A DNA stretch of 64,000 nucleotides from an uncultured Pelagibacteraceae bacterium (lineage in GTDB: Bacteria > Pseudomonadota > Alphaproteobacteria > Pelagibacterales > Pelagibacteraceae), in contig CACMYE010000001.1 of assembly GCA_902617825.1 (NCBI GenBank), positions 1 to 64,000 on the forward strand. Reading direction: 5' to 3'. Of this stretch, positions 43,194 to 45,142 are shown one piece after another (position 1 is the stretch's first letter; every line of letters begins with the position of its first letter). The notes under the pieces are model-generated. The model was not told the DNA's origin and searched no databases. It saw nothing but the letters and a program-made list of their open reading frames with translations. Position numbers and translations under genes: made by a program.

Positions 43194-43270
43194 TGGTAGC
43201 GGGAAGTGGGATCGAACCACTGACCTCAGGCTTATGAGTCCTGCGCTCTAACCAACTGAGCTACCCCGCC
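43194..43270 (-). tRNA. tRNA-Met (CAU anticodon), 3' CCA encoded
   Basis: GGCGGGGTAGCTCAGTTGGTTAGAGCGCAGGACTCATAAGCCTGAGGTCAGTGGTTCGATCCCACTTCCCGCTACCA folds as a cloverleaf. Confidence 0.93.
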
Positions 43271-43326: not shown

Positions 43327-43363
43327 CTTGTTTTCCTTCTTACTGTGTCAGGAGTGTGTCAGG
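43327..43363 (+). repeat. Degenerate terminal repeat, left copy
   Basis: cttgttttccttcttactgtgtcaggagtgtgtcagg matches 45007-45043 at 26/37 positions by hand alignment. Confidence 0.4.
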
Positions 43364-43406
43364 TATTTATGTATTTTTAGTGTGTCAGGTATTTATGTAT
43401 TTTTAG
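43355..43406 (+). repeat. Two perfect tandem copies of a 26-bp unit plus partial third
   Basis: tgtgtcaggtatttatgtatttttag x2 then tgtgtaagg. Confidence 0.95.
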
Positions 43407-43438: not shown

Positions 43439-44278
43439 ATGAAAAAACTTTTAGGGATCGTGGTTCTTGGTTTGCTGTTGAGTGGAAACTCTAACGCTTG
43501 TGAAAAAGAGGATTTCATAAAATATGTATCAGCAGGTAAAAACAAATGTATAGCAATTTTAAATTTAGGAAAGATTGAAAAGGGTAAAAAAAACCTAATA
43601 GTATTTCTTCATGGTGATGGTAGTCCTAATTCTCCAAGACCAGGAATACCCAAAAAAAGTCAAATTAGATTTGCAAAAGAATTAATAAACGATAATAACA
43701 ATGTTCTTCTTTTTGCAAGACCTGGTTACTTTATTAGAGAAAGAGGTAGTAGTGAAGAGGATAGATATTCATCAGGACCTCGTAACGCTATAAAGAGTAC
43801 AGTAGTAAATTATGATTGGAAAAATTTTCAAATACTAGCACCTGCATTACAAAATCTTAAAAAATATTATAAACCAAAAAAACTAATTTTAATTGGACAT
43901 TCTGGAGGAGCTTATCAGGGAGGTACTATTCATGGAAAAGTACCAGGATTAGTTGATATAAATATTTTGATCTCTTGCCCGTGTGACTGGGAAATTAGAA
44001 AAAAACTAAGCAACGGTAAAAAATGGGAAACCAAATCTCAATTGAAAGAATTAAAAAAAAACTCACCAAGTTTCAATTATAAAGATATAGATTTAAAATC
44101 TCTCAATATATTAATTGTTGGAAAAGATGATAAAAATACAGCTCCAGGAGTTTCAAAATATTATTATGATTTACTTAAAAAGAAAAAACTACAAGTTAAG
44201 TTGCATATTATTGATGGAGGCCACGGATTAAGGTCTATGCCAACAATTGGATCTATAATTAAAGAATATATAAACTAA
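43439..44278 (+). CDS. Secreted alpha/beta-hydrolase-like protein with islet-type signal leader
   Basis: MKKLLGIVVLGLLLSGNSNA signal peptide; IVFLHGDGS and LILIGHSGGAYQG nucleophile elbow; GGHG. Confidence 0.7.
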   Translation: MKKLLGIVVLGLLLSGNSNACEKEDFIKYVSAGKNKCIAILNLGKIEKGKKNLIVFLHGDGSPNSPRPGIPKKSQIRFAKELINDNNNVLLFARPGYFIRERGSSEEDRYSSGPRNAIKSTVVNYDWKNFQILAPALQNLKKYYKPKKLILIGHSGGAYQGGTIHGKVPGLVDINILISCPCDWEIRKKLSNGKKWETKSQLKELKKNSPSFNYKDIDLKSLNILIVGKDDKNTAPGVSKYYYDLLKKKKLQVKLHIIDGGHGLRSMPTIGSIIKEYIN

Positions 44279-44859
44279 TGAAAAAATTTTTAGGGATCGT
44301 GGTTCTGGGTTTGTTGTGGATTATTCCAGTATCAGCTGATGAAAGATTTATTCCATTAGAATTATTTACTGGTGGAGAAATAAGGAATGATAAAGAAATT
44401 AAATATACACTAGCAGATAAAATTTTTGGTGAGAAGCGAAGAAAAAAAATTATAGGACCTGAGGATTGGAAAAACCCACAAACTGGAGAAACTATAAAAG
44501 TTTATAAAAGAACAAGAAAAGGTCAAAGTGGATTAAAAACACAGTTATTTACTGTTACTAATGATGGGCAGTGTATAGGAAGAGTTTGGGATAGTAGACG
44601 AGGAGGAAAAGTAATAAAAAATGGATGTAAATTTCCTCTAGGAGTTTGGAAAGAAGGTGAGACTAGATCGTTTGAAGGTTCTTCTGGCGGCAAGCCAAGA
44701 AAAATAGAATTAACAATTTTAAAATTAGGAAAAAAGCAGAAAGACAAGGTAAAATTTAATTGGAAACTTTATGATGGCAGTGGAAAATTAATGGATGACA
44801 ATGATTATACTTTTTCCCCTGGAAGAGCTATGACTAAGCTAAATGATAAAAGATTATAA
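44278..44859 (+). CDS. Secreted protein of unknown function with the same leader
   Basis: MKKFLGIVVLGLLWIIPVSADE signal peptide; no recognised mature domain. Confidence 0.65.
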   Translation: MKKFLGIVVLGLLWIIPVSADERFIPLELFTGGEIRNDKEIKYTLADKIFGEKRRKKIIGPEDWKNPQTGETIKVYKRTRKGQSGLKTQLFTVTNDGQCIGRVWDSRRGGKVIKNGCKFPLGVWKEGETRSFEGSSGGKPRKIELTILKLGKKQKDKVKFNWKLYDGSGKLMDDNDYTFSPGRAMTKLNDKRL

Positions 44860-44940
44860 CAACCAAAACGTTAGTATTATAGTCTAACTATAAGTACCTA
44901 ATTTCAAATCTGTTAAGGTGCCCTAAACGTTAATTTTAAA

Positions 44941-45039
44941 ATAAAAAAACTTTTAGGCATCTTGGTTCTGGGTTTGTTAAAAGATATTCTGTTTCCCCTT
45001 GTCACCTTTTTATTCCTCCTAGTTGTGCCAAGAGTGTGA
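44941..45039 (+). pseudogene. Remnant third copy of the signal-peptide leader with ATA in place of ATG
   Basis: ataaaaaaacttttaggcatcttggttctgggtttgtta reads (I)KKLLGILVLGLL then stops after about 32 codons. Confidence 0.6.
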
Positions 45040-45043
45040 CAAG
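45007..45043 (+). repeat. Degenerate terminal repeat, right copy
   Basis: tttttattcctcctagttgtgccaagagtgtgacaag, partner of 43327-43363. Confidence 0.4.
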
Positions 45044-45092
45044 AAAAGATAAGATGTGAATTAACGTATAAAGAACATGGATAATGACTCAA

Positions 45093-45142
45093 GACCTCAG
45101 GCTTATGAGTCCTGCGCTCTAACCAACTGAGCTACCCCGCCA
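45093..45142 (-). repeat. 50-bp direct repeat, copy 2: truncated 5' part of tRNA-Met
   Basis: Exact copy of 43222-43271; lacks T-arm and 3' acceptor strand. Confidence 0.95.

Follow-up and report, generated by a model that had tools for sequence, protein, structure and literature searches.

Why should neighbouring genes with unrelated products begin with the same short piece of DNA? The question is raised by a 40-nt sequence (ATGAAAAAACTTTTAGGGATCGTGGTTCTGGGTTTGTTG, MKKLLGIVVLGLL), here termed the leader, which occurs at 43439, 44278 and 44941 of the window, that is, the whole 64,000-nt stretch analysed from an uncultured member of the Pelagibacteraceae. The answer that we regard as reasonably probable is that the leader is the shared joint of a pool of mobile gene cassettes in the Pelagibacteraceae, the cassettes being exchanged by crossover inside the leader. 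We demonstrate below the DNA-level identity of the leaders, the unrelated bodies behind them, the leader-bounded transfer of DNA, the anatomy of the islets and the occurrence of some bodies also with native signal peptides.

The islet in the window

The preliminary description had reported three leader copies with unrelated bodies, and this is confirmed at all three positions: the Pfam assignments differ and copy 3 is bodiless. All three belong to an islet of about 1.9 kb bounded by tRNA-Met(CAT) and a duplicate of its 5' half; the islet is a leader-cassette array within tRNA-Met, with a duplicated tRNA half. Its features are as follows.

43194..43270, minus strand: intact tRNA-Met(CAT) gene at one end of the islet (ARAGORN and Rfam RF00005)
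43344..43365, plus strand: tandem 11-nt direct repeat TGTGTCAGGAG/TGTGTCAGGTA on the tRNA side, arm-type-like by its layout
43439..43478, plus strand: leader copy 1, proposed cassette joint with an ATG start; identity with locus L120 begins exactly at 43439
43439..44278, plus strand: cassette 1, secreted alpha/beta hydrolase (Peptidase_S9-like) of 279 aa, from Pfam; cassette common to other loci
44278..44317, plus strand: leader copy 2, apparently chimeric, from comparison with leaders 2 and 3 of L120
44278..44859, plus strand: cassette 2, secreted protein of unknown family, 193 aa, its start overlapping the upstream stop (TAATG)
44941..44980, plus strand: leader copy 3, a solo leader with an ATA start and no body, which closes the array; many arrays end in a solo leader
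45024..45045, plus strand: tandem 11-nt direct repeat TGTGCCAAGAG/TGTGACAAGAA on the distal side, related to that at 43344-43365, arm-type-like and laid out as in tRNA-Leu islets
45093..45142, minus strand: exact 50-nt duplicate of the tRNA-Met 5' half at the distal end of the islet, from sequence match

Neither the 50-nt tRNA-Met duplicate nor the 11-nt direct repeats near both islet ends had been noted before. The leader copies align in register over 43 nt, copy 2 being 91% and copy 3 77% identical to copy 1. The product of ORF1 (279 aa) matches Peptidase_S9/alpha-beta hydrolase in Pfam (E 1e-6); a Pfam search with that of ORF2 (193 aa) gave no match, and the structure predicted for the 193-aa body, with a pLDDT of 46, was too low in confidence to use. 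The third copy had been taken for a decayed gene and is instead a solo leader of the kind typical of array ends. The second looks chimeric, its 5' part (with the Phe4 variant) resembling leader 2 of L120 and its 3' part leader 3 of the same locus. As the 193- and 197-aa bodies of the window and L120 arrangements are only 81% identical as DNA, the window arrangement is not a simple recent deletion from that of L120.

Two further features of the islet may be recorded. A perfect 26-nt tandem repeat (AGTGTGTCAGGTATTTATGTATTTTT) lies at 43353-43404, between tRNA-Met and the first leader, and positions 45041-45141 receive a marginal Rfam tRNA score of 29.7 bits (gathering cutoff 29). The latter segment reads as a chimeric pseudo-tRNA, in which the duplicated 5' half is joined to unrelated sequence.

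The leader as conserved DNA

The genome-wide leader search that had been proposed in the preliminary description yielded 306 distinct copies. The leader is present in 78 of the 297 sampled genomes of the order, all 78 of them in Pelagibacteraceae; it is missing from all 53 sister-family genomes searched, and a reversed-pattern control gave no matches in the 297 genomes. An assembly artefact is an unlikely source, because the leader is found repeatedly in genomes assembled as a single contig and in numerous single-cell assemblies of independent origin. The highest copy numbers, 6-12 per incomplete genome, were seen in genus g6 (G006, G038, G020, G046), most other genomes having few copies at most.

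That the similarity lies at the DNA level and includes synonymous positions, as had been suggested from the window alone, is borne out by a protein-degenerate search for GIxVLGL with all synonymous codons allowed. In 147 genomes of the family this returned 110 matches, 60 of which have the identical DNA string and 90 of which lie within two mismatches of it, while random codon choice would yield the string with a probability of about 4e-5; chance is therefore excluded as the source of leader identity. The codons that are fixed are rare ones: GGG encodes 267 of 283 glycines (background 7.6%), ATC 282 of 299 isoleucines (background 9%) and CTG 255 of 297 leucines (background 2.8%). This fixation of synonymous sites on rare codons reveals that the leader is conserved as DNA. 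In an alignment of 229 copies, conservation is flat 5' of the ATG, rises abruptly at its A, remains mostly at 94-99% over the next 35 nt and then fades; this set was partly gathered by exact-match search, and the unbiased figure is that of the 147-genome GIxVLGL search. A lineage variant, GCG for GGG, is found in several genomes of genera g2 and g4, and in one g4 locus (L219) it sits on the hydrolase body common to g1.

Bodies, arrays and gene starts

The 188 leader proteins of at least 60 aa fall into 102 body families without detectable mutual homology. Pfam provided names for only a minority of 99 representative proteins, among them alpha/beta hydrolases, polysaccharide and alginate lyases, peptidases, a nuclease, MORN repeats and others. 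The N-termini are alike, as they would be under ordinary paralogy of one secreted family, the finding that would have refuted the preliminary description; with 102 families and no homology running through the bodies, however, paralogy is excluded in that role and is given next to no credence here.

At the join between leader and fused body, sequences such as LLLSGNAYA and LLLSGCADS can be read, by eye and without a predictor, as n, h and c regions with AxA or a lipobox. Some bodies recur with native signal peptides, the match beginning inside the signal-peptide region (L118/L175, 93%; L109/L186, 88%), and these bodies, found both with the leader and with a signal peptide of their own, support the earlier proposal that genes gain a ready-made secretion signal. 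The screen that identified them used a leader-score filter; a pairing of the window with L003 in its output was an artefact. Secretion is not the only use of the leader, since it is also joined, as a short upstream ORF, to ordinary and often non-secreted genes. Among 291 closed copies, 101 are solo leaders without a fused body, and an independent ORF lies within 160 nt 3' of 51 of these; by inspection, many such ORFs look like cytoplasmic or membrane proteins.

Cassette genes are tightly packed, head-to-tail and in the same direction. More than half of the leaders (169/306) abut an upstream ORF, with a gap of -4 to +10, against 13% of control ATGAAA sites, and the absence of internal promoters from the arrays is inferred from these tight gaps. 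The weak TATAAT signal 5' of first leaders (11 vs 6.4 expected) supports no general promoter claim. In the mechanism we propose, the leader would provide a translation start that overlaps the preceding stop codon or directly adjoins it; to a body in frame it would supply a Sec signal peptide or lipoprotein signal, and in front of a gene that is not fused it may act as a short coupled upstream ORF.

Exchange of cassettes at the leader

Cassette shuffling at the leader, as put forward in the preliminary description, is directly supported by the junctions between related loci. The same body is found behind different upstream sequence in 46 pairs and different bodies behind the same upstream sequence in 103, only one pair having both in common; many of these pairs are not independent, and the cluster-weighted analysis comprises 18 and 24 clusters. 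Homology ends either at the ATG or close to nt 40 of the leader. The identity between L120 and the window, 98.2%, begins at the ATG (offset 0) and extends to +39 in the leader that follows; L070 and L222 are 99.05% identical along 1158 bp, a stretch whose end falls exactly on leader nt 40; and L212 and L173 have in common a 539-bp block running from leader to next leader at 99.1% identity, with flanks at 84.8%. L142 and L150 occupy a common tRNA-Leu site and match at their left and right ends, the cassettes between the leaders being different. The hydrolase cassette is present in five genomes (window, L045, L120, L218, L219), in four upstream contexts with the window counted and with four different followers; the leader after it always begins TAATGAAAAAATTTTTAG and then diverges. 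Whole cassettes move from one leader to the next.

Where in the leader the exchange takes place can be read from allele linkage, computed on leaders with bodies: alleles at nt 0-17 are linked with the upstream side, those from about nt 40 with the body, and those at nt 20-33 with neither. The cluster-weighted linkage maps the crossovers to about nt 15-40, and since it shifts gradually across the leader they look spread rather than confined to one base. In same-body pairs the leaders are 89-95% identical, near the value for random pairs (90%), whether the bodies are 77% or 98% identical.

These results bear on the proposal that ordinary horizontal transfer, combined with strong selection for translation or codon use on one favoured signal peptide, could suffice without any role for recombination. 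The abutment of leader starts on upstream stops is in its favour, and the sequence of the initiation region matters in principle. However, copies without a body keep the same rare codons, the replacement of one body by an unrelated one falls exactly at the leader where the flanks are 99% identical, and same-body leaders are hardly closer than random ones, so we hold the proposal to be very improbable. Under cassette exchange, the unit would extend from inside one leader, across the body and into the start of the next leader, and crossover inside the leader, at about nt 15-40, would lead to gain, loss or replacement of cassettes. Leader DNA would stay fixed because only copies still matching others can keep exchanging; that recombination keeps it fixed is our inference.

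Site structure and the search for a recombinase

The exchange enzyme is unidentified. Our preferred mechanism, which is inferred, is short-homology exchange of RecA or annealing type rather than the action of a dedicated recombinase, because no recombinase regularly accompanies the arrays; the spread of the crossovers also fits such exchange, as does the fact that captured genes already had similar AT-rich signal peptides. Against this, a stretch of 40 bp offers RecA little length for efficient exchange, and most cells possess a trans-acting Xer-type recombinase.

PF00589 has 0-2 matches, usually one, in each of 19 genomes, and these are not regularly beside arrays; the test rests on PF00589 and not on an IntI-specific domain. 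The only neighbourhood of this kind that was seen is G126:C45 1250-7212, in which some 5 kb separate two leaders from an integrase gene of the PF00589 family (330 aa). Serine recombinases (PF00239) were absent from the 11 genomes searched. No inverted-repeat core was seen in the leader, the single-strand folding of its two strands was no better than that of shuffles (z -0.22 and -0.70), and no excised single-cassette circle was seen.

A dedicated site-specific recombinase, either resident and Xer-type or supplied by a helper, with the leader as a coding attachment site in an integron-like system, is not excluded. It would account for the exact ATG edge, the hyperconserved G-rich core and the same-orientation arrays with a terminal solo site, and one Xer-sized PF00589 protein is encoded in most genomes, that of G126 close to leaders. 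The lack, in the genomes searched, of any recombinase regularly beside arrays or of the serine family, the lack of an inverted-repeat core or fold, and linkage that decays gradually with no one-base switch nevertheless make it unlikely in our judgement. A dedicated gene-capture system, in which a recombinase that is resident or derived from tRNA-integrating helper elements joins cassettes at the translated gene start, is a little less doubtful; if true, very abundant marine bacteria would have an integron-like platform whose attachment site is coding and bears a signal peptide.

The same structural data weigh on the idea that the leader by itself is a very small mobile element, of palindromic or MITE type, which inserts at gene starts. 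The many solo copies and the non-secreted genes behind leaders would suit such an element, but the transferred blocks consist of leader, body and the start of the next leader, there is no fold, and the expected inverted-repeat structure is not seen. We consider this improbable and retain cassette exchange within the leader as the preferred explanation.

tRNA islets and possible carriers

The association of leaders with tRNA genes, also raised in the preliminary description, holds for about half of the loci. Half of the loci sampled (23 of 46) are within 4 kb of a tRNA, the expected share being assumed, generously, to be 20% (P 5e-6); the other half are not near a tRNA gene, which counts against our explanation, and islets are therefore favoured but not required. 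The 13 distinct tRNA-Leu(TAA) islets (L044, L059, L062, L086 (= L172), L089, L102, L115, L126, L142, L150, L170, L176, L188) follow one common plan, consisting of the first 39 nt of the tRNA, a left arm of about 215 nt, the array, a right arm and the intact tRNA. Eight of the 13 end in a solo leader whose distance to the tRNA is exactly 159 or 170 nt; the other five have none. Paired 11-nt direct repeats are present in each arm. Their sequence is largely constant inside any one islet but varies from islet to islet, which hints at a binding protein specific to the locus. By analogy with known tyrosine-recombinase elements, such pairs may be taken to have the layout of integrase arm sites; the layout at 43344..43365 of the window matches the paired repeats of the tRNA-Leu islets and of the circular element L034.

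This integrative element was the only contig in IMG/VR to contain the leader. It (L034, 1-9737) is a 9,610-bp circle by virtue of a 127-bp terminal repeat, and encodes a tyrosine integrase, an AEP primase-AAA protein, NUMOD3 and T5orf172 proteins and one leader gene; its tRNA-Met attachment core has 11-nt repeat pairs to either side. No tyrosine recombinase was found in the mapped islets, whereas L034 has one, and no leader was found in a search of phages and plasmids. Pelagiphage HTVC105P contains the 42-nt tRNA-Leu core of the islets adjoining its integrase; comparison with the islet arms found no 11-nt repeats in common. Many arrays sit in small tRNA-anchored islets with putative integrase-type arm repeats and no integrase; that these are mobilised in trans is inferred, and autonomous integrase-bearing elements such as L034 may ferry cassettes between cells.

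Two other protein families were observed around the arrays. A conserved 75-aa protein (MNKENASKLWKIIQEAGDYL...), without a match in a Pfam search, is often encoded 3' of the terminal solo leader and 11-nt repeats (L072 6497-6721; also L120, L068, L132, L183, L192, L217). Type IV pilin genes with near-identical N-termini and different bodies lie in tandem beside islets (L171 5827-6915 and others; 19 ORFs in 10 loci), and are possibly another conserved-start, variable-body family.

Relation to known systems and significance

Leader arrays resemble integron arrays in bringing together unrelated whole genes, head-to-tail and in the same direction, at a short common joint, with gain and loss and a terminal empty site. 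They differ in having a translated joint, placed at the 5' end and conserved in its primary sequence, and in lacking an attC fold and a regularly adjoining integrase. An earlier survey of SAR11 that sought integron signatures reported no attC sites with any hypervariable region (PMC2217521). With tycheposons, VEIMEs and small tRNA-integrating marine satellites the islets have in common tRNA attachment sites, duplicated tRNA fragments and variable cargo, and L034 is like them in its integrase and primase-AAA protein; the leader islets, however, are only 1-2 kb, lack an integrase and have cargo organised by a coding joint, and a tRNA gene is nearby at only half of the leader loci.

A conserved start with a replaced body is also known from polymorphic toxin tips and conotoxin signal sequences, in conotoxins including synonymous sites, but the leader shares only about 13 codons across more than 100 unrelated families, non-secreted genes included. 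Rickettsia palindromic elements are repeated DNA inside alphaproteobacterial coding sequences; unlike them, the leader is not palindromic, is always at a gene start and moves with the cassette. No published description of the leader was found in the open-access literature searched, and the arrays look like an undescribed way of building interchangeable gene cassettes. As the exchange enzyme is unresolved, we prefer to class the system with gene cassettes, as a new form, rather than as categorically new, which a dedicated recombinase would make it.

Despite their very small size, SAR11 genomes vary in gene content, in hypervariable regions without a recognised cassette system. A common joint that combines start codon, coupling and an optional export signal would be a concrete mechanism for this variation, and would show synonymous-site DNA being kept fixed by recombination and not by protein function. 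Each swap leaves its junction inside 40 known bases, and the mechanism is therefore directly testable in sequence data.
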